The notes beneath the pieces were generated by a model. That model did not search any database, was not told the DNA's origin, and saw nothing but the letters and a program-made list of their open reading frames with translations. Made by a program: the position numbers and the translations under genes. Below, in pieces: positions 17,190-44,580 of a stretch of 64,000 bases of DNA; the first letter of the stretch is position 1, and every line of letters starts with the position of its first letter. The DNA is from Marasmius tenuissimus (taxonomy: Eukaryota > Basidiomycota > Agaricomycetes > Agaricales > Marasmiaceae): positions 620,001 to 684,000 of the forward strand of contig JAQOTA010000061.1 in assembly GCA_029532415.1 (NCBI GenBank). Direction: 5' to 3'.

Positions 17190-17900
17190 GTACCAGCCAA
17201 TAATTATTGGGCATATTCTCACCTGTCGTCCAGGTCCTGGGATCCATTGCGCCAATAATTATTGGGCAGGGGATTTGAATTTTCATGTGGGGCAGGCAAT
17301 CCTCTACCCTCGCTCGTCTCGCTCAATACTATTGAATAATCCTCCATATTGTAAAGACCTACACATTCCTGCGTAGCGGAAAGAAAAAAGAGATCATTGT
17401 AAGTGCTAGGGCAAGCGGAATAGCAGGACCGACGGATAGGCGTTCAAGCAACGATGCCCAATCGTAACGGGACACTGGGTCCTATAATTATTGGCCCTCA
17501 TTCTGAAACCTCGCGCCTTTGGGCCAATAATTATTGGGCCCTCAATTTTGGATCCTTGTGCCTTCGGGCCAATAGTTATTGGGCTTCATATCCAAATCCT
17601 TGCGCTCTGGACAATTATCATTTGCCCGGTATACTTACCATCCGAGCTTGTGGATACCGTCAGTATGTCAAGGGCTATCCCCACGCAGCGCGGAGAAAAA
17701 AGCAGAATTCACGGATGGGATTTCTTGCAGCAATGCCCAATTATTATGGAGTGTTGTTCATCTGTCGGCCCCGTCGCCACAAAATTATTGGGCAGTCTGG
17801 CAGTCCCCTACGCTTTCCATTGGGGACTGCCCAATACTTATTGGGTGGCTGGTCATTTTCCTTTGCTTTCTGGTTACTCGCGCCCAATAACTATTGGGAA
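17190..17900 (+). repeat. Palindrome cluster I: CCCAATAATTATTGGGC family
   Basis: Around ten copies of an AT-centred palindrome, near 17197, 17251, 17483, 17523, 17568, 17612 (degenerate), 17736, 17782, 17829 and 17882. Several are spaced by about 45 bases, and the spacers share a second motif, ATCCTTG(T/C)GC. A GC-rich hairpin-like motif followed by an A-tract recurs nearby (about 17370 and 17685). The cluster lies directly upstream of the gene starting at 18101. Confidence 0.9.
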
Positions 17901-18100
17901 GGCTTCCTCAGCCATGGAGCGTGGGCCACCTTAGATTTCGGGTTCCTTCTCGTCTCTCTCCCACGGTTCGTCTTTTCCTCCTCAACCACCAACATCCCTC
18001 GTTGTGCACCGGTGAGCTGCTGTTTCCCATATGTCATCCTGCTTGATTTTGGTCTGTATTCTCTAGTGACTAACCTCACATCTCTCAGAGGTCAATCAAC

Positions 18101-18583
18101 ATGAACATTATCTCCCGATCTAATCTTTTGGGCGGTGTTAACGAATCTGGTGCGTATTCAGCCGTTCCTTTTTACCTTTGGCTCTCAATTGAACTCAATT
18201 GCAAAACCCATAGGTGCCAATCAGACCCCAATGAAACCAGGAAGGCTTACTATCAGTTGGAAAGGAGGAAATACCGACCGCTTGACTGGGGAACCATATA
18301 TCCATGGTATGCTATTGCTTTCTTGTTTTTCATCGCTCCCTTCTGATCCACCTCAGCACTTGTACTGTTGGCTGCTCTTCAAAAGCACTCGGTTGACATA
18401 ACACCCACGTTGAACTACGACTGGACAGCTGCTGCTCTCTATGTGCTCTGTGTTCCCAAATTGCACATTCGTGCCCATTGGCAATTCGCGTACCTTAGAC
18501 ACGTCCAGCCGGACACAAAGGGCTTAGACGGGGAGCAAGTTGAACGAGAATGGTGTAGAGTTAAGGTTTTAGCCAAACTTTAA
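18101..18583 (+). CDS. Uncharacterised small protein, SANT/trihelix-like C-terminal half
   Basis: Three exons join in phase. Exon 1 is MNIISRSNLLGGVNES; after a GTGCGT...CATAG intron the second exon begins ANQTPMKPGRLTISWKGG and continues NTDRLTGEPYIH; after a GTATGC...CTCAG intron the third is LVLLAALQKHSVDITPTLNY, then DWTAAALYVL, ending EQVEREWCRVKVLAKL. The last part, a helix with DW near its middle and a later REW..VK helix, resembles small Myb/SANT-like modules in fungal proteins, but the match is weak. The product is about 120 residues. Palindrome clusters lie on both sides (17.2-17.9 and 18.7-18.9 kb) in opposite orientation. The function is not known. Confidence 0.55.
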
Positions 18584-18710
18584 CCTTACTAGTAGCCTCT
18601 CTCTCATACTGTACACTCACAATCAACCTTTTCGAGCCATTGAATCTCAGACTCTGCATGTGGGTTGGGGTATATGATAGTATCCGGCAAGAATAGAGAA
18701 CTGACTGCCC

Positions 18711-18870
18711 TATTATTATTGGTATGAAGGTGTGACTCTAAGAACAATTCACAGTTGATCGCCCAATAATAATTGGCCCAAAGGTGCGAGGACTCCGAGC
18801 TGAAGGCCCAATAATTATGGGATTGGGTGAGAGGTGAACTGTGATGTAGTCATCCCATAATTTTTGGCCC
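18711..18870 (-). repeat. Palindrome cluster II
   Basis: Four copies of the AT-centred palindrome near 18712, 18762, 18808 and 18853, with the spacer motif GCGAGGACT in the orientation opposite to cluster I. The block CCCAATAATTATGGGATT, then GAGAGGTG, recurs at about 44246-44290 in cluster IV, so the two clusters share ancestry beyond the palindrome itself. It lies between the 3' ends of the genes at 18101-18583 and 19134-22064. Confidence 0.85.
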
Positions 18871-19133
18871 GGGCTAGCTTCTCTTGGCACTATCATTGCT
18901 GTGTCGTCAGTCTCCCACTTGCTTTGACTCAGAACTGAAGGCACAACTGAATCATGGGACACATGCGATATGTGTACAGTACTTTCGAAAGCAGTGGCTG
19001 ATCGTGGCCGGGGAACAATATATACAATTGCAGATCAGATAAAGTTCAAGATGGTGACACAAGGCCGGAAGATAACAAGTGAGATAACGAATGAACAAAA
19101 TGACAAAAGAATTTGAGATACTTCGCTGACAGA

Positions 19134-22064
19134 CTACTTATTCTTCGATCCACCTTTGCTTTTTGGTTTTGCTTCCGAACCCCGGGCCTTTGTTCCTGAG
19201 CCTGCACCCCTCTTTTGACCATTTCCTTTCTTCTCCTTATCTTTCCCTGTCCCTGCACTGTGCTCCTTGATAAAACGAATGGGGGCTCTGGTAGAGCGCT
19301 CTGGCTTACGTGCCGCAATGGTTTCGGTTTCCGGGACCGAAGTCAATACAGAGGTGCATGTCCTGGATGTTGCTGTTTTTGTCTTCTTCGCTTTAACCTC
19401 CTTGCCCTCCTCATCATTGACTTCTACATGACGTTTCCAACTTGTAGCTTTGGTGATCAAGACAGCCGCTTCTGAGGATACCGCAGTTGCCGGGAGAGGT
19501 GGGTTCTCGAGCCTATTCTCCTTGCTGTCGGCAACTGGCTTCAGAACGATGTTCGATGTCTGTAGTGGCAATTCTTCCATAACTGGCAGGGAAGACGGAG
19601 CTGATGAGGGTAAGGGAGCCATTGAGGATAGGGAGGCCGTCGGTGGAGATACAAAATTCGATGTAGGACATGACGCTGCTGCTGGAGATGTCAACGAGGA
19701 GGGAGAGAAGGCTGTTGGCAGAGGAGGTGTGATTGCCATAGACATCGGGACAAGAGAGGTTGCGGTAGGGAACGAAGCCATAGATGGAGCTGACGTAGGG
19801 CAAAAGGCCGATGGCACCGGATTCACAGGGGTAGAACCTAACAGAGCGGAAGATGTGACAGGTGGGGTGACAGGTGGGAAAGTCCATTGATTCCACGACG
19901 AAGACTGTGGGTACGACTGTGATGTGTTGCCGAAGCCGTCACCTGTTACACCTAAATGAATGGTGAATCAGTACTGTCTGAGGTGTGTCTATGCAGACAG
20001 CCCCGAAACACACCAGCAGATTGGAAATTTGGCAGGTCATTGTTCATCGGCGTCATCTGATGAGCTCCAGGTTCAGAGTTGATATACATTGGATTGTCAT
20101 AGGGTAAAGCTGAACGTTTATTAGACTAAGAAAGGATGGGAGTGAATGTGAACTGACCATTTCCAGCGCCAAGATGATACTGGTGGTAGGAGTGCTGTGC
20201 GAGCATATTGGATTCCTGCAGAGAAGCTGTCAATGAAGGCTATCAGTTGGGCCGCAAACAAATTTGACGGTAAGGCACGCACCATTGACATGAGAGCCAT
20301 CTCCCCCACCCATATCTCCAAACATACTGAAGTTGTATGATTGCATCCATGAGTCGTCCCCCTCATTGGTAGGAAGTTGAAGTTCTGGTTGTGGGAAAAC
20401 CGGTGCTGAAGTCGGAATAGACAGATTCATCAAGTCCAATTGGTTTGTAGGTTTGGACCACGATGAAGATGGGTCCTGAGAAGTTGAGCCTAGTGAGGAA
20501 GGTAAAGTTGTGGTTGCTGCTGGGCCAGTGCTGATTGTGCTAGTACCATCTGGAGATGTTGATAGAGGCGTTGTTACTGGTGAGAGAGTTGTTGTAGATT
20601 GAGGTTGACATTGAGCAGGGAATAACGTCAACGTGGCAACGGAGGGATTGGAGGATGCCATAATTGATTTGTTGTCACCTTGAGCGCTTGCTGGTGCCAG
20701 GTCTGACGGTCCAGAGGCTGTGGTGCTGTCCCCATGAGCCGTGTCACCTCCACCTTGGTTCTCGTTCTCAGACTTCTCCATCAATGCAAAAGCCAAGTCA
20801 GCAAGCTGCTCTTTTGAGACCACCCGGGACTTGCGATACTCTCGAGCTAAAATCATGTAAGTTAGACTGAGCTTCACGATCAAGGAATAGTTGGAGAGGC
20901 TCACAGAATGCAGCTTCGCCGTATTGAACACACAAATTAGCAGTGACATCATATGCTACTGGATCAAAGTCACGGATATCGGCCTTCATAACTTGTGTGT
21001 TAGGTATTATCCCGGTGCAGCTGTAGGGGGCTCAAATTCTGACCAAAGATAGTCCATCACACATGACTCACCTCTTCACAGAAAGCTCACCATCACTCAT
21101 CTCGGCATTGGGAGCAAAGATGAAGAGAAGCGCACCACTTCCAAAAAGCTTCACAATGGTGTCTGTAAAACTGGGTAGGATGTCCTTCGCATTCTTCCAG
21201 AGTCTAGTATTGGAAATTGATCAATATCGAGCGGATCAGAAACTTTTGTCGCAAGAACTTACTTGAAGTATGAAAGGGCTGTCCCATTCCAATCGCCACC
21301 TTGTCAGTACTGGTCCAACGCCTCTTGGTGGTCCTCTTCTAGCTCGTTCAGCACCCTCTGCTTGAACCCGTCTGTCTCTGTGTTCCACCTTTCCGCACAG
21401 AACTTGTTTTTACCTGCTATGTTTTCCTTCATGCTGCCTTCACCCGAACCATTTTGATCCGCTTCGCACTTTGCCTTGAAATCATCTCGAAGCTGGGTTT
21501 GGTAGTACTTGTGCTGATAGTACTGGAGTACTGAAGGCTTCCGGGGGGCAGTCGTGGTCATCTTCTTAATCTGGGCGATGAGAGTACTGAGCCCAGTTGG
21601 GTCTTTCTTCTTTGTTGTCCACTGGTTGCGTGTCCAAAACCCGAGTCTCTGAAGGTGACTGGTCAAAATCATAACTTTGACCCTCGAACTGATGCATGTA
21701 CCTTGCGTAAGTCGTGCTTGAACTGCGCCTGGGCCATGATTTCCTTATTCCTTTCATCCATGTCCTCGATTGAGTTCACGTCTCGGAGCACAAACACACT
21801 AGGGTCATCAACCGTCGCAGGGTCCGAGTCTAGATCGAAGGTGCCCCATCGCTCGACAAACTCGTCAACCATCTTGTTGTATGCAGCCTTTGTACATTTT
21901 TCCCACATCGGCCGATACTCTATCATGTGGGATGGTGAGTGATCTAGGCTTGATGCTGTGGTGTGAATAGGAACTAAAGTACTCACTGTTGATGAGCTCG
22001 AGGCGCTCCCCTCCGGGTTGCACCCAGCTTGGTCGTCCGACAGGTTTACCGGTACGCTTTCCCA
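19134..22064 (-). CDS. Uncharacterised multi-exon protein with AT-hook start and basic tail
   Basis: Exon 1 is MGKRTGKPVGRPSWVQPGGE; KPVGRPSWV resembles an AT-hook, suggesting DNA contact. Later exons read YRPMWEKCTKAAYNKMVDEF, VERWGTFDLDSDPATVDD, RKPSVLQYYQHKYYQTQLRD, CAERWNTETDGFKQRVLNEL, then after further introns KLWKNAKDILPSFTDTIVKL, MKADIRDFDPVAYDVTANLC and REYRKSRVVSKEQLADLAFA. A long low-complexity Ser/Thr/Pro region follows (exons about 20230-20860 and 19137-19880). The tail is lysine-rich, with RSTRAPIRFIKE and GQKRGAGSGTKARGSE, ending SKNK at 19134. The overall plan (GRP(P/S)W start, central helical part, disordered basic tail) recurs among unnamed agaricomycete proteins; I know of no function. 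Palindromes lie just upstream of its start (22.12-22.22 kb) and beyond its 3' end. Exon joins in the middle are not all verified. Confidence 0.65.
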
Positions 22065-22117
22065 TGTTTTACTGATTGTGTCTTTGCTGGTAGAGGGTGC
22101 AGTCAATCAAGGAGGAG

Positions 22118-22220
22118 TGGGACCAATAATAATGGGAATAGTAACGAGCCCAATAATATTGGAGAGCACCGATAGTATCCCACTACCAGAATTTGCCATC
22201 AGTTTACTGACCAATAATGG
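22118..22220. repeat. Palindrome cluster III, upstream of the AT-hook gene
   Basis: Three degenerate copies, CCAATAATAATGGG near 22122, CCCAATAATATTGG near 22150 and CCAATAATGG near 22211, lie 55-160 bases upstream of the start codon at 22064. The position fits a promoter, but nothing shows binding. Confidence 0.75.
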
Positions 22221-22279
22221 TTTGTAGGACTCGATCGGCCCTTATGCACAGGCAAAGTTTTCCTTTTGAATCTCAATTT

Positions 22280-23250: not shown

Positions 23251-23254
23251 ATAT

Positions 23255-23764
23255 TGATGAGCCAGCATAGTTAAAGTGCACAGTGGGTATAACGAAGTAA
23301 ACCTCACATGGGTAATACACAGAGTGGTCTTGAGATGCTTGAGAAGAGATGATAATTGAGTAGATTGTCCTAAGGCTTAAGGCCTTTTGTCCAGTCTTTT
23401 ATACATAAGTTTCTGGTACATGTAATGAGTATTACACTAACTGAAACTTCTACTAGAAGTAGGTATTCGGCCCTAAAGGCGTAAAAGACATTAGTACTGT
23501 GTAAGTACTTCTACCATGAATGGTAGTATGCTTGGTGAGCATAGTCGTGTTTGCCTCATGTATTGAAGGCTCTACTTATGCTATTGGATAGCGACTGTCT
23601 ATAGTGTCATATATGATGAAACTAGATGTACGTAGTAAGGTACGTAGACAGAGACGTAGTACTTGCATGAGAACGCAAGTGTTCTAGAGGCGTAGCTCTA
23701 TAAATAGTGTGACGCGTAAACAACACGTCAACAGTGTATCACATGATTTCCATCATGTTCAACA
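23255..23764 (-). repeat. 3' LTR of copia 1
   Basis: A 510-base copy. It lacks an 8-base stretch present in the other LTR (near 31968) but is otherwise nearly identical. Solo LTRs of the same or a sister family lie at 38216-38740 and 41438-41893. Confidence 0.95.
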
Positions 23765-23798
23765 CTCCCCTCACTAAGTTCATCATGCGATCATGGAA

Positions 23799-26700
23799 CT
23801 AGTGAAATGTTAATCCTAAAGATTGCCTGAACAATTCGAACTTTGTTCTGCCAAGATTCTTTGAAAGAAGATCAGCAGGTTGTTTAGCAGTTTCAACGAA
23901 ATAGATTTGAGTCTTTCCGTATTCCACTGCTTCCCTGATGAAGTGGTATTGATTGTCGATGTGCTTTGTTCTTTTATCAGTAGCTTCATTGCTGCTGAGA
24001 AAAATAGCGCCTTGGTTGTCGCTAACACATGGAACTGATCGAATAGGGAAGTTCAATTCGTTCAATAACGACTTCATCCAGCAAGCCTGACGTGTACAGT
24101 CAGATAGAGCCATATACTCTGCTTCCGTGGATGATAATGCAACCATTTTCTGTTTCTGAGAGACCCAGCAAACTGGTGCATTGGCAAGCTTTACGATATA
24201 TCCAGTCTGTGATTGACGATCATCTTTATCAGTTGCCCAATCAGAGTCAGCAAAGGCAAGTAGTCCTTGGTTGGATCTACCATCGTAAATGAGTTTGTAC
24301 TTTGCAGTGTGAACAAGGTATTTCACGATGTAAAGTGCCTTCTGGAGGTGTTCCTGATTAGGATTAGCTCCATACTGTGACATCTTGATTACAGCAAAGG
24401 ATATGTCTGGTCTCGTTCCGAGAGCCAAGTAAAGTAATGATCCGATAACCGATTGGAATCTATGCCTAATCTCGGGATTAACCTCCCCCTGGTTTTGGGT
24501 TGGATTATAGCCTTCTGGCAAAGGCGTATATGCCGTTTTGGCGTTCAGAACTCCGAATTTACGAATTATCTTTTCAAGATAGTCTCGCTGATCAAGGATC
24601 AGTCTGCGATTCTTCCGATCTCGAGTAATTCACATTCGCAGAAATTCTGTTGGCTCGCCTAGATCTCGGCATTCCCAGATTTTCATGAATTCGCTTTTTA
24701 GTCTGTTGACAAGGTTGCGATCAGGACCCATAAATAAAGCATTGTCGACATAGACGACGGCAATGACCATATTGCCATTCTTGTTGAAGACATATGCGCC
24801 AGCATCGGATAAGCATCGTTTGAATCCCAGACGTTTCATGGATTCAGTACATTGACGCCACCAGGCACGAGAAGCCTGTTTTAATCCGTACAATGCTTTG
24901 CGTAACCTCCAAACCTTGCTGGAGTCCGTAATGAAGCCTTCAGGTTGTTCCATGTAAATCTCCTCGTCTAAGGCACCATAAAGGAATGCTGTTTTAACGT
25001 CTAGCGCAGAGATCTCCCAATCTTCAAGCGCTGCTAGTGCCAATAGAAGTCGTACAGTTTCGAATCGTACTACAGGAGAGAACAACTCGTTATAGTCTAT
25101 CCCTTGTTTCTGCGAAAATCCTTTCGCAACAAGCCTTGCCTTCTTACGGCCATCAGACTTGATGTCAAATACCCAGCGGGATTTCACTGCTTTTCGGCCT
25201 TTGGGTAGTGTGACCACATCAAAGATGTTTCTATCCTTGAGTGATTGTAATTCCAGTCTGCATGCTGCTTCCCAAGATGGTCGTTCATCTTTAGGACGCT
25301 TCTGGACTTGTTTGTATGTCCATTCACGAACGTTATCATAACTACTGGCTTGAAAACCATATAGTTGATATCTGTCATTCAGCAAGTAAACCAAGTAATT
25401 TTCTCCCCCTTGCTGAGCAAGATCGCTCATATTGTCATCTGTGTCCATAGGAGCGGCTGGATCAGGAACCCTATTTGGTATTGTTTCAGGTTTATTTGTC
25501 AGATTAATCTGACTTTGCCAGCGTGCTTGAGATTCAATATTGCGTTCGATTTCAGTGGGATGTCGATTTCCATAAACATTAAACAGACGGTTGGGAGTTA
25601 CTCTACTTCTTGGAGGGTTTCTTCTGACAGCTGCTGGTGGAGGAGCTCGTAAGTTCTCCCACTCATCATAGTCAGCTTGGCAAAATCCAAATGGATTTGT
25701 CCACCCAGAAGAACCAGCAGACCATGGATCCAGACCATACTGATTAGGATTGTGATCAGAGCCTTTCGGTGATCTGAATCCATCAGTATTTGAATGATTG
25801 CTGTTGTGCACATCATCGCTTTTATCATCCGGCATAGGATCCAAGGGAGGATCTCCCCCAGGCTGATGATCTTCACCATCTGATCCTGGTGGAGGTGGAG
25901 GATTGAAGAAATCATCATCATTGTGATGATCTTCATGGCCATCATACGGGTACGTTGGAAAGGGTATAGACCGGACAGGTTTGTCGGTTTTATCAAACTC
26001 TATGGATCCGGGCACTTCTTTTTGACATTTAGGAAACCAGTTCTCATTGAAAACTGCTTGTGGAGTAATGTATACAGAATTGTTGGTTGTTCGAAAGAAT
26101 CGATAAGCTTTTGATCCACTCTCGTAACCAATGAAAATCATTGCTTCAGAGTGTGGAGCAAGCTTATTTCTACATTTCGGTATGTATGCATATGCGCCAC
26201 ATCCGAACGTCCTGAAGTATGAAACATCAGGCTTCTTATTCTCAAACAACTCAACTGGAGTTCTGTATTTCCTTGAACGAATAGGAGTTCTATTGTAGAT
26301 ATGGACGGCTGTGAGAATTGCAAATTCCCACCAGTTTTCAGGCGCACAAGCCTGAAAGCGCATAGCTTCAGATTTTTCTCGTAGTGTACGATTAAATCTT
26401 TCTGCTCGTCCATTCTGTTCATGCACGTTGGGAGAACCTCTTTGTGGAAATATTCCTAGAGAGTTATACCAGTCCCATTGTTCATTTGAAAAGAATTCTC
26501 CCCCTCAATCGAAATGCACACTTTTGACCTTTTTATTAGTCTGGCACTCTACAAGAGCTAGCCAATTGCGCAATTTCTGATCTGTATCGCTCTTTTTACG
26601 AATTGGATATACCCATCCGTATGATGTTGCATCATCAAATAAGGTTAAAACATATTCGTTTTGATAGTAAGAGCGAGTTGGATATTCTATCAAATCACCG

Positions 26701-28667
26701 TGCACGAGCTCAAGAGGCTCCTGAGCTCGTTTAGAGGATAAAGGGTACGATTTGGCAACCATTTTGCCTTTGGCGCAGCCTCGGCATGGTTTTGTTTCTC
26801 CCTTCGAAGTAACCAACTTCGTTGGAAGCCCTTTAACATTATCCATTAATTTTCCTAAGACTCTGGGATCACAGTGTCCCATACGTCTGTGCCATAATTC
26901 AGAAGTATTGAAAGATACAACAGATGTGAAGGAAGTTTCTCCCACAAGAACCTTCGCGCTCATCCATCGTAAAGGATCATCTTTATGGCTTTGGTAAAAG
27001 CTCATTAAAAGAGAATCATCTTTCTTGCTCCGGATCGAAGTCTCTGGAGAGTCCAGTATAGTATAGTAACCTATACTCCGGAACTTCCCACTAGAGATTA
27101 AACGATGTGGGCTGTCGGGATTATACATCACTGGGTATAACTTTGTGACTTGCGTCACTCCTGCGCTATTGGTGTGTCGAATGAGGACAGTACCATAGCC
27201 TACTATTTGCACATTTGCTTTATCACCTGCTGATGTAGTAAGACCTATTGGCATTTCCAAAGTCTGATAGTCTGAGAAATCCGTTTTATACAGAGTCATA
27301 TGCACTGATGCCCCACTATCAAGTAGCCAAGCATTTTGCGTATCTCTCATTTCACAATCACTCAAAAATGCAGCAGAAAACGACTTATATTTTGTTGTTG
27401 CATATACAGAAGAAATACTACATTTCCTTGGTACTGAGTTCCTTAGGATATGATAGTTCTGCATCGAGGATTTAGTAAAAGTTTGACTATTAGAACTTTG
27501 AAACACTTGCCAGTCTCCACGATCATTGCTTTCAGCCCAATTGTTATCAACTCCTTCAAGGCCATCTCCATAGTCACAATCATCAAAGTACCGTTCATGC
27601 CATTGAAGCGGTTCTTGATTCTGACTTTGGAATCCTTGGCGAACAAGGAGCTCTCGACGCTCCCTTGTTCTGAGTTCTTCTTGATAACGTTGATTAGCGG
27701 CGTCTTCAACAGCTATCCAAGCTTCCAATTGGCATTTATAGTTTTGCCATTGAACGAATCTCGTGGCTTGATATGGTTGATTGTTATTAACAACCATAGT
27801 GATATTGCCAATACTTGTGCCATTAGCAACGTGTAAGGGTATTCCATTGGTCCTTTCTCCAATTACTGCAGGTCCGTAATTCTCGAATTGAGAGTTTCGG
27901 GGATCACTTGGAGATGTAACCCAGGGGTCAACCTCAGGTTGTTCATCTACCGGACTAAGTCTTTCTGGCTGATCCGGTGGAGCAGTGGTTGGTCGAGAAG
28001 GTACTTCAATGTAATCATCCTCTAAGGATTGTATGCCATAAAAAGATTCAGGAGAGCTTGGAGGTGTGTGGATGACTTGGTCCTGCCATTGTCGTACTCG
28101 AGGTGGTGTAGTTGCGGGGCGGTTTATGTATTCATGGGTAGGAAGGACTGGAGATTGGGAACAATTCATTGCCTCAGCTAATTCCATGAAATCTCCAGGG
28201 TATGTTCTTGATCGCTCACTGAAGCGACCACCCTTGAGTTCTCTTCGAGGAATATCAGCCTGAGTCATGGGAACAGACATTCTGATGTTGTTCATCCATT
28301 TGTACAAGTGCGTGTGCCAGTTACGAACATCTGGAAGACTAATGTGAGGGATGTAGCGAACCCAGTGCCTATTAAACCTTGGTTGTCTCCATTGGGATGC
28401 TCTAAATGGACTCGCTCTTATGTCTGTCGTTCCAAACAACCATTTTCCTTCAAGACCAAGTTTGACTAACGGATGCCAGAAGATAGGATTCAACACTTGT
28501 ACAGGAAGTGTGACATTCCTCTTGTTGACTCGGAAGGCTTCATCCACCGAAGTTGAACAAGGATTTCTAACTCGTTGAACAAATTCTTCAACGGTGCTGA
28601 TCCAATTTTTATTATTGATTTCAGCTATAACCGTTGATAGGTGTTGGAGGTTCCAGGTTGGTATCCG
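23799..28667 (-). pseudogene. Copia 1 pol: protease, integrase, reverse transcriptase, RNase H
   Basis: One reading frame with two stops. Upstream comes a proline-rich linker, then protease with the active site WLLDSGASVHMT (about 27310-27345), the gag-pre-integrase part ELWHRRMGHCDPRVLG and CRGCAKGKM, and the integrase core LFDDATSYGWVYPIRKKS. A TGA at 26505-26507 falls in HFD-stop-GGEF, where an arginine or similar is usual; the frame resumes with NGRAERFNRTLREKSEAM. Reverse transcriptase shows RWVFDIKSDGRKKARLVAKG, ALDVKTAFLYGALDEEIYME and YGLKQASRAWW. The catalytic YVDD is YVDN here (about 24745), which should abolish polymerisation. A second TGA lies at 24630-24632 (FLRM-stop-ITRD). RNase H keeps ADSDWATDKDDRQS, ALSSTEAEYMALSD and DNQGAIFLSSN. 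Read as a dead copy whose protein order is complete. Confidence 0.95.
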
Positions 28668-28927
28668 TATTCAAACGTGAACTTGTTATCTTCTACTGTT
28701 TCCATATGTAATATCCTTTGTTGTATGCATAATTCATGAAGAGCTTGACGAGGTGTCATATTATGCACTGCATCTCTTCTGATAGCATACATAACAACAT
28801 ATTTTCTGGTCCTGATCAGAATCCAGATCCAAAATTTATGGTCTGATGAGTTGCGTATTAGTTTGCAACGCATTCTGATCATGGATTCCTTCAATGCTAT
28901 GTCGTTAATCGTCTGATTTCCGAAGTC

Positions 28928-31879: not shown

Positions 31880-31892
31880 GGGGCCCATAACC
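31880..31892 (-). other. Primer-binding site of copia 1
   Basis: GGGCCCATAACC on the plus strand abuts the 5' LTR. It resembles the anticodon-loop part of initiator tRNA-Met (CAT anticodon flanked by C's), the half-tRNA primer known for copia elements. Copia 2 has the same site. Confidence 0.7.
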
Positions 31893-33618: not shown

Positions 33619-34412
33619 TTATCTTCTTGAGTCCCAAAAGATCACCTCTTCCAACAGTTTGAGCTTGTACTTGGTGAATAGCCTTGTATAGCCCTCCATA
33701 GCTGTATGTGCGGAGTCAAAAGGTTTGTGATATGCCATCTCGCCGTCTGACGTCTCCTTGTATTCTGCGAGGTAGCGACGGTATAAATCATCACAATAAC
33801 CGTGATGCATGTCATGCTTTCCATATATCTTACAAATCTTCTCTTGAACTTTCTGAGCTTTTCCCTCCCATTTGCGTGCAGCTAGAACCCAAGGTCTGTA
33901 GAGGTGTGGATGTTCTGGCAATGAGTAAGAGTCAAATGCTTAGGGTTTAGAGACTGACTGCTCGGGTAGGACAAGCTCTACTCGCTGCAATGGATTGTTC
34001 AATTTCGAGGTACCTGGAGTGTTTCTGTCGAGGATAGTCAGGTCTTTTAGAACGTGAAATAAGCCAATGGATTCAGTAACACCCACAAAGATTCTCCCTG
34101 CCTTCCCAACTCCTGTTTCCCATGTCTAGAGCCCATACGAGTGCCTTGCTGCTTGCATATCCTTACAAATTGACGACAGGGAGACTATGAGCCAAAAGAG
34201 GCAGGGGAAGAGCAAGCCTTAACTCACCTTTTCTCTGCACGCTTATACTGTATTTCGGATTTATGTCTGGTAAAACACAATAATTAGCGACTAAACACTG
34301 AAATTATAGACAGATAATGAATGAAAACATACCTTTGATAGTACTTTGCATGTTTTCTCTTGGTAGCTTCTCGTTTTTCATCTGCTGTGATGTGTAGTGG
34401 AGGATGAGGCAT
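33619..34412 (-). CDS. Uncharacterised basic helical protein
   Basis: Starts MPHPPLHITADEKREATKRK, continues HAKYYQR, and joins over an intron to HKSEIQYKRAEKR. This lysine-rich opening with K(Y/H)YxR repeats is common in small unnamed agaricomycete proteins and may bind nucleic acid. After a longer intron comes HLYRPWVLAARKWEGKAQKV, then KICKIYGKHDMHHGYCDDLY, FDSAHTAMEGYTRLFTKYKL and VIFWDSRR at the stop. The open frame extends upstream to 34544, so an earlier start is possible. Function unknown. Confidence 0.5.
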
Positions 34413-34627
34413 GAGTGTTGAGAAGAACGTAGGAATTAAGTGCTTGACAAAGGTGGATTCAGGGTACCCTCCGTCCGACTTTTTCATTTGGCAAGATATT
34501 GAGCCCATCTGTTGGTTGTTGGTGGAAAATAAGTTTCCGAGCACATCTCAGACATTTTGATTACCAGGCAACGATGATGAGGGTTGGTATTCAAAAAAAA
34601 AGTGCGCCGGAATGTCACCCAGATCCA

Positions 34628-34850
34628 TTTCAGAGTTCAAGCGCCCGTCATTACGGTTTAAACGCCCGTTAATATGGCTTAAACGCCCAACAATAGCTCC
34701 GGGCTGTAGTTCGACAGAGTCTTCAAGAATCCATGAAGTTAATCTCAAATATGGCTACTCTTCATCCATAGACCTCAATTGTCATTCTGTAGACCTCAAT
34801 TGTCATTCCGTAGACCTCAATTGTCATTCCAAAAAACTCAAAAAGGTCAT
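34628..34850 (+). repeat. Two short tandem repeat arrays
   Basis: About three copies of an ACGCCC(G/A)..AT.GG(T/C)TTAA unit at 34640-34695, and three copies of TAGACCTCAATTGTCATTC at about 34770-34835 (19-21 base period). The second array sits just downstream of the small gene at 34934-35224. Confidence 0.8.
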
Positions 34851-34933
34851 TCCATGATTCTGATTTACTAAATTCAACACTAGTATTTGTCAAGATCAAC
34901 CTCAAGCTCCCTATATACACTCGTCACTCGTGC

Positions 34934-35224
34934 CTATGGAACTGGACCATTCTTAGGAAGCTTAGGAGCTCTTCCCCTGCCTGTCATTCTTCCAGGTGGA
35001 TAAGTGACGCCACCGACTCTGAAGGGCTTATAAAATCTATGGAAGAGAGGTGAGCTTGAGCTGAGACTCTCGAGCAATGGTACATACGTTGTCTGGTGGG
35101 GTGGCGCATATGGCTTCCAAGATTTATCCTGCTCGACGCACTTTCTGACTCTTCTCTTCTTTGGTGTGGCATATACTGCGGGTTTTTCATCATGGCAGGC
35201 ACGGCGGGGGTTCTGTCGAGGCAT
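34934..35224 (-). CDS. Small arginine- and proline-rich protein, one intron
   Basis: ATG at 35222-35224. Exon 1 is MPRQNPRRACHDEKPAVYAT, PKKRRVRKCVEQDKSWKPYA, PPHQTT. A 49-base GTATGT...CATAG intron gives FYKPFRVGGVTYPPGRMTGR and GRAPKLPKNGPVP. The total is about 80 residues, basic, with a PKKRRVRK stretch that looks like a nuclear localisation signal. No known domain. The intron and its clean reading support a real gene, but its small size keeps confidence modest. Confidence 0.5.
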   Translation of the reverse strand: MPRQNPRRACHDEKPAVYATPKKRRVRKCVEQDKSWKPYAPPHQTTYVPLLESLSSSSPLFHRFYKPFRVGGVTYPPGRMTGRGRAPKLPKNGPVP

Positions 35225-35619
35225 CGGATTTGCAGCGCTATTCCTGTGGCTTTGAGGAGATGAAGTTGAATAGGGATAGCGAAGAATGTACTCACAGGTA
35301 TTCACGTTGGTTCAGTTATAGTACCTCTTTGCGGAAGTTCAGGTTTATATTTGATTTGAATGAGATCTGGACTTTCACAAATGGCTTTTTTCGGGATCTC
35401 AGTTCTTCTCGAAGGTTGCGAACCACAGATAGATTAGGCAGCTTCATTCCCAATCTAGTTTAGACAGAACACCACAAGGTGAGAATCACATAAGGGAATC
35501 CAGAGCGGTGGTTGCTCAATTTGGGTCACTCGAAGTTTGGTTGAAAGATCACATTGGGATTTCAGGCCCCGGTACATAGATTCTTACATATACACGCAAA
35601 AAAAGTGACTACTAATTGC

Positions 35620-36482
35620 TCAAGAGAAGAGAACACCCTGTTGGTACGTGTACTGGAACTGGCCAGAAGTACCATCCGAAACAGTGTGCACTTGGCCAGT
35701 GAGCTGACGCTTGTGAAACATCTCGCGTGCCATCTGCTCGTTAGAGCAGTGCATCTTCAGGCCTCCAGAGAGATTGGCGGTCAACTTGTTGGCGAATCCC
35801 CTGTGTGAATCCAACAATCAGTCAAGCAATCACAACTGCATCATGTAATTGCCACTTACCACCCTTGAATCCAGCCGACCTTGTGCCCAATAATAATGGC
35901 GTACCATCTGTCCAATGGCTTCTGGGGTGCTGGAATGAGGACATTGCAGTTCATACAGATTTGACCCATCATGGGAGCGCCGGAAAGGGTAGACGTATCT
36001 CCAGTTGCTGCGGGACCTTTAAGAGTAGAAAGGCAGATGGGTTGATCAATTGAGGTGGATGATGACAGTGACAGAAGGACTTACCGTCATTGTTTCTTTC
36101 CATAGCTGCCTGGTTTGCGAATGCCAGACCTGTGGTTCTGAGTTAGCCAAGTGTAAGAAAGAATAGATGGCAACAAACTGCACTCACGATCGTCAAGCAT
36201 AGTAGTAAGGGATGCTTCCACCACAGCGGGGACACCTATAATGAAGCATCAAGCAAATTCATTGAGGTGTAGACAGGGAACAAACTTACGATTAGCAACA
36301 GCAGTATTGATCATTGCCACAAGCTGATCGATGTCAGTCATTGCTGCAAAAAAAATCAACATGGTTGAATCTCGACGGTGGCGAAGGGGAGACTTACCAA
36401 AGGAAGTACCCATAGGGTTTTGGTTGTTGTTGGTGTCAACAGAGGAGGCAGAATTGTTGGCAGAATTGTTGGAGGAAGACAT
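35620..36482 (-). CDS. RNase H1 N-terminal (viroplasmin-like) domain protein
   Basis: Five or six exons: MSSSNNSANNSASSVDTNNN, then MTDIDQLVAMINTAVANR, GVPAVVEASLTTMLDD, GLAFANQAAMERNN, and PAATGDTSTLSGAPMMGQIC with MNCNVLIPAPQKPLDRWYAI. The core RWYAIIIGHKVGWIQGW, followed after an intron by GFANKLTANLSGGLKMHCSN and AREMFHKRQ, matches the small domain found at the N-terminus of RNase H1 (a W-Y-V-x-x-x-G-R start, a central W, a helical end), known to bind RNA/DNA hybrids. Such domains are scattered through unrelated agaricomycete proteins. The codons for AIIIGH on this strand form one of the CCCAATAATAATGG palindromes (about 35887). The C-terminus ends QGVLFS at 35620. No catalytic RNase H is attached. 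Confidence 0.65.
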
Positions 36483-38215
36483 GATGTGCAGTAGTTCGGG
36501 GGTAGAACAAGGAAAAGATGCTCTGGATGGCGCAAGAGGATGAATTTGGCTTTTTATAGTTCACGAGGCAAGAAGTTTGGCAATGCCCGAAAAAAAACGT
36601 GATTGTCCTCGTAAATAATCATCAACAAAATTGATGTGTGTCCGTCAAACACGTGCTTTGGTGTACGCAACAGTTCCAGATATGCCAAAAGCAAAGAAGA
36701 AACCAGATCGCTGCCACGAAACAACAGCTTCGGATCTACAAAACACTACTTTCCATGAGGTCCTCTCCCAGTCAAAATGTCGTGTCTACTCTAGCCATGT
36801 CAATCTCCATACGACCAAAGCACCGGCCACAGCTGTTTACCCTCCAGTGGACCACTCAATGCATATTCCGGACGATGAAATGGTGGATTCAGGGATGGGG
36901 CTGAATGATATCACGATGGAAATGCTAGATGAACAAGGGGAAGCTCAACCAGTCAGTGAACCAGGGAATCTGAAAGTCAATCTCAAGACCAGAGAAAAGG
37001 CAAAACGGTACCCCGACTCAGTGAGTGTCATTACAGGACACATTATATCAGCTTGTTGACACTCCTGTTCTTATAATCTAGGATGTGCTATTGGTAACAT
37101 GGCAGGAATCTCATTGAGATACCTATCTAGACTGGCAGATCGTAACTGAAGGGCGAGGTCGTCATTTTGATGGGTGTTGCTTGCGCTGCAGAGGCCCTGA
37201 TGCTCAGTTTTGGTGTCTCATCTGTGACGGTCTTCAAGTGGTCTGTAAAGACTACATCATCCGCTCTCATATTGATGAGCCCCTTCATCGCATCCAGGTG
37301 GGTCTTCAACTATATTCCTATGGAATCCGGTGACACATTGCATACATAGATCTGGCAAGCTGACTATTTCCAGCCAATTACCCTAAAAGACCTTGGCCTT
37401 CGCTATCAAGCTGGACACCACCCTAATACTCAATGTCCTTGCCCTGTTGTTTCTAGTCAGGACTTTGTTGTTCTTGACTGGACAGGAATTCATTCCATCA
37501 CTCTTGACTTCTGTAGCTGCAATTTAGTGATACATGGGTGTCTAATCTCTTTAGTTATTCTGATTCACTGTCTCATATTTTGATTAGCCCAACATCTTCA
37601 GCTAATGGAACGGGGCTGGTGGCCATCCTCATACAAAGAACCTCGCACGGCGGCTACCTTCAATCTTCTTAGAAACTACCACTTGACGAATCTTCAATGT
37701 CAGACCCCACCTACCAACTTTTATAAGGTCTTGGAGCAGATGGCAGACGGGCATGGTGTGCTTAAGCTACCGGTACGTAGAGGCCTGAATGTTTGGCAGC
37801 GTGATACTTACATTCAGAAATAGGCCCGAGAGGCACAGTGGTTGCTCATGCTACGGGAATATCGGCATATCAAGACAGCAAAGCAAATCGGTCAAGCACA
37901 TGATCCAACTGGAATTTTGGGAACTGCTTATGGCTCAGGTACCATGCCATGTAGAGCCTGCCCTCATCCTAAACAAAATCTCCCTGAAAACTGGCAACAA
38001 GCACCCGCTGATGATCGGTAAGCTCTGCAATTGTTTACATTCAATGAAACTCACAGTGCACTTTTGCCAGATTTCTCTATACTCTCTTTCTGTCCGAGGA
38101 CGCGAACTTCAAACAGAAAGCCCGATCACGTCCAAACAACCGCCGTGATCCAGCACTCGAACCAGGATGGGGATCTTTTGTGCCTAACAATATCTACATG
38201 GCTGAAGTGGGAAAG

Positions 38216-38740
38216 TATTGAGCCAGCATAGTTAAATGCACAGTGAGATGAAACTAAAACCTCACATATTGACTATAAGAGAATTCTTGTGTTCTTGTAG
38301 ATGCTTGCTAGAGGTGATAATCGAGTAGATTGTCCTAAAGCTTTGAGACGCAAAGTCTCCAGCTTTTATACAAGAGTCCTTGTCTATCTACAAGTCATAG
38401 AACATAGGTAAGTGAGAACATAGCATATGGTACATATTGCATATCAGTAAGCATAAGTGCTCGAAGAGCAGAGTGAGTAAGTATGCATAGTCATACTAGC
38501 TTTCTATCTAAGTAATCTAGAGAGAAAGCTCAGTCAGCTTTGAACGCTATTGGGTGCAAAGCTGAACCTTGTTATAAACCATAGAGATAAGGTGTGAGTA
38601 CTGACTAACTACAGAGTCCGTCTGAGTAAGTACAGGATCTTTCATACAAGTGCAAGTGTCATAGTGAAAGAGTCTATAAATAATAGACGCGTAAACAACA
38701 CGTCAATAAAGTGTATCACATGGTAACCACATGTTCAACA
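38216..38740. mobile_element. Solo LTR (copia family) in the KDZ gene
   Basis: Begins TATTGAGCCAGCATAG and ends ATGTTCAACA. A 5-base duplication, GAAAG, lies at 38211-38215 and 38741-38745. It shares the first and last blocks with the copia 1 LTR but is diverged in the middle, so it is a sister family or an older copy. The KDZ frame reads MAEVGKQTDQTE across it once the insert and one GAAAG are ignored. Confidence 0.88.
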
Positions 38741-39997
38741 GAAAGCAGACTGATCAGACCGAGGTAAGTTCTTTTCATGATGATTGGACCCCCGATGACT
38801 GTCTAAAAAGCCTTGTGTTGTAGATCAGCCACTGTGCTGGCTTTGCTGCAATATCTAGTGCCAACACAAAGAATGCAAAGGGATTACGTGCCACTGGGAT
38901 AGGCTCGGTCAGCTGCTCACACCATGAAAGTTTTTGACCCAACGGAATGGGTGATCTGCAGATTGGTGAAAGGTGCGTCTCCGTCGTATTTACTTCAATA
39001 TACATGCCTAACAGATTTTTTCTCAAGATATAGCATCATGGACTTCTTGGCCTTCTACAATCTCATGGCTTGTGGTCTACTCTACGTGGTGTTCTCCTAT
39101 GATATCGCGTGTCAATGGATGCAGAATTTCTACAGGTGCATGATGGAGTACCCAGCATCCATGCAGCTCCCCGCAAAGTTATCCATGAAGTTCAAGGTCC
39201 CAAAATTCTATCTCCCAGCTCATGAATTGTCATGTCTCACAAAGTTTTCGTTCAACTACACTGAGGGAGTGGGAAAAACGGATGGTGAAGGTGTCGAGCG
39301 CACATGGTCATGGCTGAATGGCTGTGCATGCTCACTGTCAATGATGACAGCCGGCGCTTGATGGGACACAATGGATGATCTCACGAATTTCTGGAATTGG
39401 AGGAAAACTATTGGTTTAGGTGAGTTGAACAGTCAGTTCATTATCTACCCAAACTAATGCTTTGCTTTGCAACTTTGACAGAAGTTACCCTGCTGAAAAA
39501 GGTGGTCGCTGCAATTCCAGAAGCAGTTGTGAACGCTGGTGCATATGTGGCGTTCACTGACGCTCTGATACCTGACTATGGGTCAGAGGTCGCAAAATGG
39601 CAGGAAATGGTGGTGTGATGGGAGCAGGGGGTCTCTGAGGACTGTCCATACACTGTCACAGAGCCAGGTATGTCTTTTGTTTTCGCCTCTCCGTTCATTA
39701 CTCACTCAGTCATCAGATATCACGATCACAAAAGTCAAGAAGAGCTTAGCCGAAGAAGATCATAAATGGGAAATGGCAGGAGTAGTACTTTTCTGTCGAC
39801 TGCAAGTAGTGTCATCATCAAGGGACTTGACATCGAGGACTCCCAGTAAGTCACACATGTCTTCATAGACCTTTCGGACTTGACAAATAGCTTTATAGAC
39901 AACATCTCCTTGCGATGGTCAGTCTCAAGAGCCTGACGGAGCTCAAAGCGATTTCGATCCAAAAAAAGAGAACGGCACTTCTTCAGCACATTCAGAA

Positions 39998-40537
39998 TAG
40001 TGTTGCCAGCAGCTCGGCTCTAGCTGCGGCTTGAGTGGTTCAGAACCAGTTCTGAGCCGGCTTAGCCAGTTGGAGCCGCCATAATATTTATTTTTCTCAA
40101 TCCCCCATCCTTAGCCGACCAGAGACTCTGAGGAGTACATAGAAGGTTTATTAGCTCTCCCAGAATACAGAAGAACATTCATTTTGGTACAAATACAGGA
40201 AATGTACCATTGGATGTCCTGGCCTTGGCATGGGAAAAGCTACCCACCCCTGGGTTGCCACGTGCAGGGACAGTTGGGCTGACAACTGGACCCACAGTCA
40301 CCTCCCAAAAACTGTACTTTTGATGCAAACTAGCCCGAATGAAGTTGACACTTAGTTTTTTAGTGCTTAGATGTTTTGTAATAATATATTTTTTTGAACA
40401 GCTCGAGCTGCAGCTGAACCGGTCAAAGCGGCTTGAGGAGCCAAGCTGATCCCTGTTAACAGCTCCTGGAGCCGCGGCTTGGTTTGAGCTGCGGCTCTAG
40501 AGCTGGAGCTGAGCCGAGCTGACCATTGGCAACACTA
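39998..40537. mobile_element. hAT-type MITE, second copy, in the KDZ gene
   Basis: Termini TAGTGTTGCCA and TGGCAACACTA with GGCTC/GAGCC-rich subterminal regions, as in 12477-13075. The 8-base flanks are ATTCAGAA (39990-39997) and ATTCGGAA (40538-40545), differing at one base. The coding sense QHI(R)KYY on the right flank suggests the left copy has mutated. This insertion is therefore probably older than the one in F-box copy 1, whose flanks are exact. Confidence 0.9.
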
Positions 40538-41437
40538 ATTCGGAAGTATTACAGCAATCTCGTACAGCACATGCCAGGAGCTCAGCACCTTATCGACGCT
40601 GAACCATCTCTGACACAAGCAACCCAACCCGAAACCCTGAAAATATTCCTTCCAAGCTCACTCCTGCCTTCTCTCCCGCAATCGAATCCCTTGCCCTGCC
40701 CCTCTGCAGACTCCACGGAACTCACCACCAAGGTTGTTTGTCCCTCAGAGCTAATATCCCTAGAAGACTGCCTACGCTTTGCTCAGGCACATGAGGCTCT
40801 TAGCAGGCTTCGAGCACAACTCCGGGCACGGACCGTTGCATACAAGAATTCCTCACATGTTGCGGCTTCTCAGAAGATGTTCCTCAAGGTCCACGCACTC
40901 CAGGACCAGATCGAGGCAAAGGTCAAAGCCTTGAGTGAGACCTACTGCCAAGCACATGCGGCTCTACTTGTGCTGCGTGGCCAAGGGGAGTGGTGCAGCA
41001 CGCTTAGGGAGCTGCACCCTGATGATGTCCGAGGCATCAGTGAGCAGCTATTGTGAACTGCTGAGAAGGAGCAATTCATACAGGATCGAGAACGTGCTGG
41101 ATATAGCGCTGAGGACCTCAGCTCGTTGTGTGGTGGTAACGTTGCTATTGCTCGTGTCAACTCTACGCTTGCCACAGGTCAGACCAAGAACCACCTTTCC
41201 TGGATTTGGTTTACTCATCAAGCAGTTGTTGATGGAGGTGAAGGTGCAGACACAATCTCAACAGAGGCTGGGATTGACTTAGTTTCGGTAGGTCTACGTT
41301 CAGAATGGTGTAAGGCTCATGCACGGGCTCGGCGTTCCCGAGAGGAGATTCGATTAGTCAAAGAAGAAATGCGGCGGGCACTTGAGTTCTGCCAATCTCA
41401 GTCGGTATGGTGGAGGGACCAGATCGGCCGGCGTGAG

Positions 41438-41893
41438 TGTTGAGCCAGCATAGTTAAAGTGCACAGTGGGTATAACGAAGTAAACCTCACATGGGTAATA
41501 CGCAGAGTGTTCTTGTAGACTTGAGATGCTTATGAAGAGGTGATAATTGAGTAGATTGTCCTAAGGCTTAAGGCCTTGGAATACCAGCTTTTATACACAA
41601 GTTTCTGTACATGTAATAGTAATTACAATACTATGAAACTACTACTAGAAGTAGGTATTTAGCCAATACTAATGAGTCTTTCGTCCGTTGTGCCTCACAC
41701 TTTGGACTATGAGCATCATACTTGATGCAACTACATATGTAGTAGATATCTACAGTGTCATTTGTGAAGCAATAACTATGTAGATACATTCTTGCATGAG
41801 AGCGCAAGTGTTCCTAGAGGCATAGCTCTATAAATAGTGTGACGCATAAACAACATGTCAATATGTATCACATGATCTCCATCATGTTCAACA
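41438..41893. mobile_element. Solo LTR (copia 1 family) in the KDZ gene
   Basis: Begins TGTTGAGCCAGCATAG and ends CATGTTCAACA (inverted TGTTGA/TCAACA). The duplication GTGAG lies at 41433-41437 and 41894-41898. It is close to the copia 1 LTR but about 60 bases shorter through internal deletions. The KDZ frame rejoins as RREGVSTWFQEGLTAYAK. Confidence 0.92.
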
Positions 41894-42299
41894 GTGAGGG
41901 TGTCTCAACTTGGTTTCAGGAGGGTCTAACGGCGTACGCCAAAGAACATGCAGAGATTGAGCTAGTTCGGGCGGCAAAATGGGAGCATGCATGGAAGCCA
42001 ATCCACAAGCATGCAGCGGCCATTCTTCAAGACCTTTCGGATCCCAAGAGCTCTGGCGACATCCGGGATAATCTTCCCGAGTTAGAGGTCAAAATTGAGA
42101 TGGAGGAGGAGATGGAGGATTGCGTAGTGGACAATTAGTCGGGGAAAACTAAGTGTATACTATATGACATTGAAGTGAATGACAAACTTGTGTTGCAACC
42201 TTTGATCCGGTAGGACTATGTTGTGTGTCATGGAGAATGTTGGACATCAACCATTGAAGAGATCTTTCAGCCGATTTAGGCAACGGACCGGTTCCCTTG

Positions 42300-42400
42300 C
42301 AATCCCAATAATTATTGGGAATTATTTCAGAGATTCCGGTGACACTCTTCCCAAACTAGAGGTCGACATCTCACGAATTTCCAATCCCAGTAATTATAGG
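42300..42400. repeat. Two copies of the AT-centred palindrome
   Basis: CCCAATAATTATTGGGAATT near 42305 and CCCAGTAATTATAGGAT near 42383, between the KDZ pseudogene and the 3' side of the unknown gene at 42507-43518. Confidence 0.8.
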
Positions 42401-42506
42401 ATGGTGACACATATTTGGGAGGCAACAAGAGTATCAACTGAAAGCACAGTCCAATTTTTATTGTCCAAAAAGATACATTGGCAAAAAGATATGGCGGGAT
42501 CAGGAG

Positions 42507-43518
42507 CTATCTAGTAGTCGTATGGCCTCCATTGCAGCATGTACACGTCAGGTACACTGCAGGTGTGGGTATGATTACGGTATCGGATGCAGAACCGAAT
42601 TTGATATACAAGTTATCGACCCAGTGCTCCCGGATGTCCTTCCTCATCTTGACGGACCCACGTGAGAACTTTGGAGGAAATCTCAGGCAATGAGGGGAGC
42701 TGACAAAAATCAGAGCGTACCAGAGTGCTGTTGAGCAAAAGGTGTCCAGCTTCGTATTCTGCTCTGACTGCCTTGAAAATTTTCCTGAGCGAACGTAGGG
42801 TTGGGCATCAAAACATGACCAGCTCGACGCGAGAGACATTCATGCCGGGAACGGACATGAGCATGCGAGCGTATGTACTGGTGATTTTGATTTCATTGTT
42901 TGCGGAATCCTCTCTGGAAATAAGTAGGATGAGTGTGTGCAGGCTAATGGGAATTGAAATGATCACATACAGGAAAGCAAACAACTCTAGAAGAAAGAAA
43001 CAATGATTGAGGTTTTGGTCGTCAACGGAGGGCTTCAATCACGTACCTTTGGTGAGTTTTACAATACATTGAGCCGCCTCTTTCATATTCTCAACGCAAT
43101 GGACCTGTGTATGCATCTGCACACGCAGAGCTTTCACATACAATGTCACCACCTGTAGACTCTCGGCACTGAGTGTGCTAGTGTTGAACAGGATGACATG
43201 GATGTCAGAATAAATCGTTAATCTGTTGATCTGCCTGTACTCAGTCATAGTACTGTGAACGAGACCATTGTTGATCCACTGCAAGAAGTCCTCAGCATCG
43301 GCCCACAAAATACCTGCCCGACTTTCACACCCAATCCAAGTGATCATTCGCAAGGTCAAAGAATCGTTGCAGGGGTACTGAATTTCACAGTGTTCTCTGG
43401 TCTGAGATGTGGCCTCAATGTTTGCTTCATCTGTGAGTGCTGCAATGAGGGTAGGATGAGCGTCTCGGAGGGAAGTAGATATGCCAATGATGAGTTCATC
43501 TTTGCCAGGAGGGTACAT
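42507..43518 (-). CDS. Uncharacterised protein, possibly decayed
   Basis: The largest exon starts MYPPGKDELIIGISTSLRDA and includes MITWIGCESRAGILWADAED, FLQWINNGLVHSTMTEYRQI, NRLTIYSDIHVILFNTSTLS and LQVVTLYVKALRVQMHTQVH, ending KEAAQCIVKLTKG. A 60-base GTACGT...TCTAG intron leads to ELFAFLYVIISIPISLHTLI, possibly a membrane segment, and EDSANNEIKITSTYARMLMS, PGMNVSRVELVMF. A TGA follows at the end of that exon, yet the frame stays open beyond it (CPTLRSLRKIFKAVRAEYEA), so either the gene ends there or a stop has arisen. I do not recognise the family. Palindromes bracket it at 42.3-42.4 and from 43.58 kb. Confidence 0.45.
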
Positions 43519-43579
43519 GATGGGGGGAACGGATCAGAAAAATGACCAACAGCAGATGGAATATATGAAAGAATCAAGG

Positions 43580-44580
43580 CCAGGAGGCCCCATAATTATT
43601 GGGCAGGAAAGACTGAAGTGAACAGAGGAAGGAAGCAAGCCTGCCACCCAATAATTATCGGGCAACTGCCAACTGAGAGATAGCCATGATGTTATTGCTG
43701 TTTGTGAACCTGCACCTGATAGCCCTGTCCTTTCCGCTTTTTTTCCCTGCTTCGCGGGAATGGATAATGATTTGGTGAGTAGATACCCGCAGAGGGTTGG
43801 GTACTGAGACCAGATATCAGTGACTGAGGAGGGTTTGATGTCCCATAATTATTGGCCTGAAACTGCAAGGATCTGAAACCGACTCGGAGAACCCAATAAT
43901 TATTGGGCCCAAGGAGCAAGGATTTGAATTCGACTCGGAGAGCATATAATTATTGGACCGAGGGAGCAAGGATTCGAAATCGAGGGCCCAATTATTATGG
44001 GACCCAGATGCAGGGTGAGGGGTGAGATTGGATGTCGCTGCATGTGATCCCAATTCTGCTGCTCCACTTTCTCTAGTACTTGAATCCCTTTTTTTTCCCT
44101 CCCACTTTGTGGGAATGTGTAGCGCGTTCCCTGAGGAGGATCCAATAGTATTACGCAAGTGTATATGGCCACGAAGGCGAACGGAGGGTTGAAATTCATC
44201 ACCCAATAATTATTGGGCCGAAGGCACAAAAATTCCAAATTGAAAGCCCAATAATTATGGGATTCAGACCCTGGACGAGAGGTGGAATTGTAATCAATAA
44301 TTATTGGCCCCTGCCAGTGTCTTTCAGCACCATAGCAAGCTGGTGAATGGTCTCTCGCTACTTCCGTCCCGGCTATCGCATCATACTATACTGGACAGAG
44401 AGACAGTGTTATTATACAGAGGTCTTGAAGTCACAGGACAAAGTCATAGGAGCTACACATGGGTGTACATCTGCAACCAAAATGAGGCAGAGGAGGGATG
44501 CCTATAGGGTAGCCCTATGGAAAGGGACCATAATAACGGGGAAGGGTGATCTTCTTGTCTATAATAATTATGGGGCTACA
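43580..44580 (-). repeat. Palindrome cluster IV
   Basis: About eleven copies, near 43588, 43648, 43842, 43891, 43946, 43988, 44201, 44247, 44296, 44528 and 44561. Between 43842 and 43990 the period is 45-55 bases, with the shared spacer GAGCAAGGATT(T/C)GAA, the reverse complement of the cluster I spacer. The hairpin-plus-A-tract motif appears twice, inverted, near 43735 and 44090. The cluster starts about 65 bases upstream of the start of the unknown gene at 43518. Confidence 0.9.

Follow-up and report, generated by a model that had tools for sequence, protein, structure and literature searches.

Arrays of a nearly locus-specific palindrome at both ends of a broken KDZ transposon in Marasmius tenuissimus: candidate sites for an element-encoded protein

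In a 64,000-nucleotide stretch of the Marasmius tenuissimus genome (GenBank assembly GCA_029532415.1, contig JAQOTA010000061.1, positions 620,001 to 684,000, forward strand; hereafter the window), copies of the 16-nt palindrome CCCAATAATTATTGGG are concentrated towards the two ends of a large DNA transposon. By its transposase domain, its target duplication and its ends, this unit is a member of the KDZ superfamily. The palindromes are probably the subterminal site arrays of this single, broken transposon, putatively bound by a protein that the element itself encodes. Related elements were compared on other contigs of the same genome, which are referred to by C-numbers. The features that define the element are the following.

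16913-44589, + strand: KDZ DNA transposon of 27,677 bp with its later insertions counted in, defined by termini, target duplication and KDZ transposase
16905-16912, unstranded: left copy of the target duplication, GTGAAAAT
44590-44597, unstranded: right copy of the target duplication, GTGAAAAT
16923-17621, + strand: left arm of a degenerate inverted repeat; aligned with 43845-44580 in reverse orientation, it shows 60.9% identity across 770 columns
43845-44580, - strand: right arm, partner of 16923-17621
37118-42135, + strand: KDZ transposase gene, split by three insertions, its pieces collinear with C44, C21 and C69

The transposase, about 1,000 residues long in C44, C21, C69 and the window, matches the KDZ transposase domain (PF18758) at 39026-39397 (E 2.8e-28) and at 38707-38988 (E 8.3e-8). 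In the C44 protein the same domain (E 5.2e-31) is accompanied by a CxC2 zinc cluster (PF18803, E 6.9e-15); the CxC2 match itself is that of C44, to whose CxC2 region the window piece at 37350-37580 is 53% identical. Compared by pieces, the C44 transposase is about 52% identical to that of the window and 44-45% identical to those of C69 and C21, figures that are approximate since the hand-free C44 gene model matches its own DNA at only 93%. A fold search with the transposase gave no Foldseek match at E <= 0.001.

The edges of the element lie at 16913 and 44589, the left one about 280 bp beyond the palindrome clusters listed in a first-pass annotation of this DNA, which had proposed a search for target duplications around them. 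The GTGAAAAT pair was read off the aligned ends and then confirmed by pattern, the automatic search having returned spurious pairs only. Eight identical bases stand directly outside the termini in all three elements with both ends found, namely the window element, C44 (GTTTCTCA) and C21 (GGGACTCC, the sole such 8-mer in the 3.6 kb searched). Assigning the first G to the flank alone gives a 7-bp duplication (TGAAAAT in the window); the 8-bp reading is preferred because all three duplications begin with G. The left terminus reads GAGGAG...TGTA in five of five elements, a pattern that also matches unrelated places. With up to three mismatches it occurs at 30 places in the genome and at none in the control; the left end of the window element has itself diverged too far to be among them. 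The right terminus was found in three elements and, read from outside on the other strand, is either (C)AACAG or (C)AACAC there. GAGGAG on the left and (C)AACAG on the right are common to the window element and C44. From a duplication that remains perfect beside arms with 61% identity, we infer that the two arms differed already at the time of insertion.

Among the relatives, C44, C21 and C69 match the window element in order and orientation over two accessory genes (B and D, described below) and the transposase. They have a further accessory open reading frame (ORF) in common that was not seen in the window element. C58 was seen in part, with the gene B end only (the KDZ matches at C58:130-132 kb fall outside the stretch examined), and C10 and C54 are represented by one arm each. 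The elements measure 16,433 bp (C44), 19,820 bp (C21) and 27,677 bp (window). The first-pass annotation had suggested, as one of two readings, that the palindromes are subterminal transposase sites of a mobile unit, and knew of no named element with this layout. The mobile unit is borne out by the target duplication, the termini common to relatives, the KDZ transposase inside and the relatives of the same layout, and the unit does belong to a named superfamily. That its sites are subterminal holds as well, whereas the transposase is at present a candidate for the protein that reads them.

The sites are distributed as follows.

17196-17898, unstranded: palindrome array I, nine sites with up to four mismatches
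18708-18868, unstranded: palindrome array II, four sites, sequence oriented like the right arm
22122-22164, unstranded: degenerate palindrome pair, four mismatches each, directly 5' of gene B
42304-42401, unstranded: palindrome pair, one exact, between the transposase and gene C
43588-44575, unstranded: palindrome array V, ten sites, two exact

This agrees with the earlier cluster map, which had listed about 30 copies: with up to four mismatches the window holds 31 sites, 28 of them within 16913-44589 and three outside, and with up to three mismatches all 23 sites fall inside the element. In 20 runs, random chains built on the dinucleotide transitions of the window gave 0.05, 0.4 and 2.2 sites at exactly two, three and four mismatches, respectively. 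Neighbouring sites in the dense parts are mostly 41-59 bp apart, close to the 45-55 bases first described, and the inversion of cluster I relative to clusters II and IV/V, also described then, was recovered. The region of array II at 18755-18893 is 68.7% identical to 44195-44333 on the same strand. DNA searches with either window arm brought up the other arm and cluster II only, at a sensitivity low enough to miss the relic in C58 described below. The isolated copy at 35.89 kb exists as reported, with three mismatches, but lies within an ORF conserved in the relatives and could be a chance occurrence. Of the second motif said to recur in the spacers, CAAGGATTYGAA, the presence in both arms stands (exact copies at 43917 and 43967), whereas it shows next to no enrichment across the window (18 sites at two mismatches or fewer vs 13 in random chains). 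As an independent array it was set aside as weak, with one ATT-N2-AAT dyad per arm, no more than in random chains. A structured RNA or a tRNA was dismissed as an explanation, since over the whole window there was neither an Rfam match at gathering score nor a tRNA.

The outermost parts of the element (16913-18900 and 43550-44589) hold 23 of the 28 sites. This bears on the possibility that the palindromes are operators or enhancers of the element's genes, or serve escape from silencing, with no direct role in moving the ends. The internal clusters at 22.1 kb, on the 5' side of gene B, and at 42.3 kb, separating the transposase from gene C, would suit such a function, as would the internal cluster of the C44 element at 405.5-405.9 kb; the concentration of sites in the outermost parts and the position of the arrays near both termini make it unlikely.

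Exact copies of the word number three in the whole genome (71 Mb), and all lie in the window; a genome-wide regulatory motif or repeat family was rejected on this ground. Ten of the 11 places with at most one mismatch are in the window, the eleventh being C58:114337, as are 14 of the 30 places with at most two mismatches, compared with five for the reversed word. The genome-wide count proposed in the first-pass annotation thus yields an excess over chance, and the word belongs to nearly one locus. Host-factor sites recruited for transcription (back-to-back CCAAT boxes of the NF-Y/HAP type, an extended CArG box or a homeodomain site) could account for the two CCAAT boxes within CCAATAATTATTGG, and isolated CCAAT, with the palindromes masked, is found at 3.8 per kb in the arms (11 in 2,879 bp) vs 2.2 per kb in 45-64 kb. 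However, the word is hardly used elsewhere in the genome, the words of the relatives are without CCAAT, and conservation is as strong in the TAATTA-like centre as in the CCAAT part, so that this explanation is highly improbable. The homeodomain or extended CC(A/T)nGG site put forward earlier likewise finds little support, since the word is near-confined to the locus and relatives use other words.

Those other words come from searching the ends of five elements for motifs, with one main word for each: GCCCAATAATTATTGGG in the window, CCCGAATTATAATTC in C44 (full dyad CCCGAATTATAATTCGGG), GAATTAGAATAC in C69, GAATTAGAATCC in C21 and GAATTCTAATTCC in C58. The words of the relatives' arrays mostly have two-fold symmetry, and where both ends of an element were read, its arrays begin at most a few hundred bases from either terminus. 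In a cross-scan with matrices built from the retained sites, so that self-matches arise by construction, the window word has 31 matches in the 4.4 kb of its own ends, two in C44, none in C69 or C21 and four in C58, these four belonging to a relic right arm of the window type (113.9-114.65 kb). The C44 word has 26 matches in C44, one each in the window and C69, and none in C21 or C58. Genome-wide, all 12 places with up to two mismatches to the C44 word lie within the C44 element; with up to three there are 55 places vs 21 in the control. Two more left arms, C10 at 1,964 kb and C54 at 503 kb, have CATTRYAATG-like and GATTGTAATC-like dyads. A core ATT-N2-AAT, chosen after the motifs had been seen, is enriched with lineage-specific flanks in all eight non-window arms tested. 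It beats 500 of 500 random chains in seven of ten arms (both of C44 and of C21, and the left ones of C69, C58 and C10) and 499 of 500 in the C54 arm. It is not enriched in the window arms, where the observed count was reached by 193 and 60 of 500 chains; so the window element is the one with another word, CCAATA-AT-TATTGG.

Some further observations concern the relatives. In C44, five palindromes of the C44 type, about 100 bp apart, lie internally at 405494-405902, between the accessory genes and the transposase and near the transposase start. The relic at C58:113.9-114.65 kb, a second window-type right arm within another KDZ element, combines a CAACAG...TGTAGCCC end with the one-mismatch palindrome at 114337. 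An inverted duplication of about 3.4 kb (C58:100001-103396 and 115465-118851, 70% identical) lies directly against the C58 element at its left end.

Several points weigh against reading the palindromes as subterminal sites for an element-encoded protein. Binding at the arrays and the identity of the reader protein are both things that we infer. Gene B, one candidate reader, could not be placed in a known DNA-binding family, having no Pfam match above the cut-off, and its structural model is poor (mean predicted local distance difference test score, pLDDT, 40.7, built from two sequences). Outside the locus, the word occurs with exactly two mismatches at 15 places besides C58:114337, compared with five in the control. 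C69, C21 and C58 cross-match as one word class, which makes any code one per class and not per element, and the right end of C69 was not found in 31.5-35.3 kb. Moreover, the conservation of the site cores (mean pairwise identity 0.78, as opposed to 0.28 for the near-random flanks), which counts in favour of the arrays, is inflated, the sites having been picked by similarity. Lastly, tandem-like stretches at 17484-17584 (period 45) and 43865-43983 (period 50) would be expected if the copies were functionless products of local duplication and slippage in the arms. We regard that origin as scarcely credible: identity among the flanks of the 28 sites is close to random (0.28), the spacing is irregular, and the same design recurs with other words in the relatives.

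On balance we keep to subterminal site arrays, and propose the following scheme for their use. An element-encoded protein, either the transposase, perhaps via its CxC2 zinc cluster, or the gene B protein, would bind the sites as a dimer and coat about 1 kb at each end, whereby the two ends could be brought together and the transposase placed at the termini. The clusters beside genes B and C may additionally regulate the element's genes. Given the differences in word from lineage to lineage, a reader would mainly recognise its own element. More tentatively, it is possible that the KDZ lineages of this genome are kept apart by a private end-code, in which every lineage has its own dyad word with special flanks around a shared ATT-N2-AAT core, the reader having diversified with the word, and that the window lineage jumped to CCAATA-AT-TATTGG. 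If this were true, word switching would be a route for transposons to split, within one genome, into species that do not mobilise each other.

Besides the transposase, the element carries four genes or gene remnants.

18101-18580, + strand: gene A, small ORFs like the C-terminal part of the KDZ transposase domain
19137-22068, - strand: gene B, accessory; NCBI record PM082_022123 (213 aa) spans its 5' exons
34287-36080, - strand: gene D, second accessory ORFs, with relatives in C44, C21 and C69
42510-43518, - strand: gene C, with one distant relative at C4:99847 (23% identity, E 3.8e-6)

Gene A, whose Pfam KDZ match (E 0.011) is below the cut-off, resembles the C-terminal portion of a KDZ transposase standing alone, with clusters I and II on its two sides in inverted orientation. 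It was rejected as a conserved gene of the element, as the other fetched loci hold no relative at E <= 1e-3, and is possibly a captured or nested remnant. Gene B has relatives in C69, C44, C21 and C58. A protein search with the window copy returned a single match, its own M. tenuissimus record PM082_022123, and one with the C44 relative returned a single match in another M. tenuissimus record. A second annotation of the species (AAF712) contains close relatives of the C44 transposase (003196) and of C44 gene B (003201), both on one contig of 635,793 bases. Set beside the single gene B match, these sequence comparisons hint at strain polymorphism of the window element. Adjoining the sole relative of gene C, a tandem array at C4:100377-101681 consists of units of about 160 bp with AGCTGACGTCAG palindromes.

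Four later insertions interrupt the element, three of them in the transposase gene; they include long terminal repeat (LTR) sequences and a copy resembling a miniature inverted-repeat transposable element (MITE).

23255-32410, - strand: nested Copia LTR retrotransposon, LTRs 23255-23764 and 31893-32410, 97.9% identical, 5-bp duplication AATAT
38216-38740, unstranded: solo LTR within the transposase gene, duplication GAAAG
39998-40537, unstranded: MITE-like insert within the transposase gene, ends TAGTGTTGCCA and TGGCAACACTA, flanks ATTCAGAA and ATTCGGAA
41438-41893, unstranded: solo LTR within the transposase gene, duplication GTGAG

The window element is probably immobile by itself today. To its right, a second Copia-type LTR retrotransposon with RVT_2 and gag domains occupies 46879-53686 (LTRs 97.2% identical, 5-bp duplication GGGAG). 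Just outside the right end, a 29-bp inverted repeat (44740-44768 and 45349-45377, 97% complementary) is perhaps a short MITE. A GGTACGTGAAT unit, dispersed and in tandem with a period of about 21, is found on both sides of the element (15858-16560 and 45665-45716), and two pairs of long, diverged direct repeats lie outside it (13313-15140 with 60759-62565, 70% identical; 2-2551 with 9570-12076, 59% identical).

In mushrooms, KDZ elements are numerous and of large size; this genome has at least 167 KDZ matches, and one transposase has 644 homologues at E <= 1e-30. The arrays provide concrete candidate sites for end recognition, and a genome in which several relatives differ in their words amounts to a natural experiment on the divergence of transposon specificity. 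In the literature that our searches brought up we found no description of end recognition or private end words in KDZ elements; Iyer et al. 2014 (PNAS), reportedly the founding KDZ paper, may say more.

Comparison with known systems draws on three published accounts. The Cryptococcus neoformans elements KDZ1-KDZ3 carry a CxC1 cluster, measure about 9-11 kb and have terminal inverted repeats (TIRs) of 139-241 bp, with 241-bp TIRs and 8-bp duplications in KDZ1 and duplications of 4-8 bp in KDZ2 and KDZ3 (PMC12810828). They resemble the window element in large size, inverted ends, 8-bp duplications and a KDZ transposase that bears a CxC zinc cluster (PMC12810828), but not in the CxC2 type (seen in C44), the accessory genes B and D, the degenerate arms or the arrays of dyad sites; the word "subterminal" is absent from that text (PMC12810828). 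Kyakuja, described by Kojima from Laccaria bicolor and other Agaricomycotina, has 7-bp duplications, CA..TG termini, no perfect TIRs and a TET/JBP gene (PMC12730594). Superfamily, mushroom host and lack of perfect TIRs are common to both (PMC12730594). However, the window element does not fit Kojima's description: the left end here is GAGGAG in five of five elements, the inverted arms are related, and eight identical bases flank three elements; of the Kyakuja termini, only the right end ...TG is found in the window element, and this in the 7-bp reading.

A functional parallel may be found in the CACTA elements. In En/Spm and Tgmt*, TNPA recognises subterminal repeats, and subfamilies within a single genome have different repeats (PMC2613891). 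Putative points of likeness are large size, short sites arrayed at either end, a word that varies by subfamily and a separate DNA-binding protein, as opposed to the CACTA termini, 3-bp duplication, tnp2-type transposase and reported TnpA binding of those elements (PMC2613891). The window element has GAGGAG and (C)AACAG ends and an 8-bp duplication instead. By analogy, its arrays may work like TnpA and the subterminal repeats of En/Spm. Private end words are already known in CACTA elements; what looks new here, as far as these accounts go, is that related KDZ elements have differing words.

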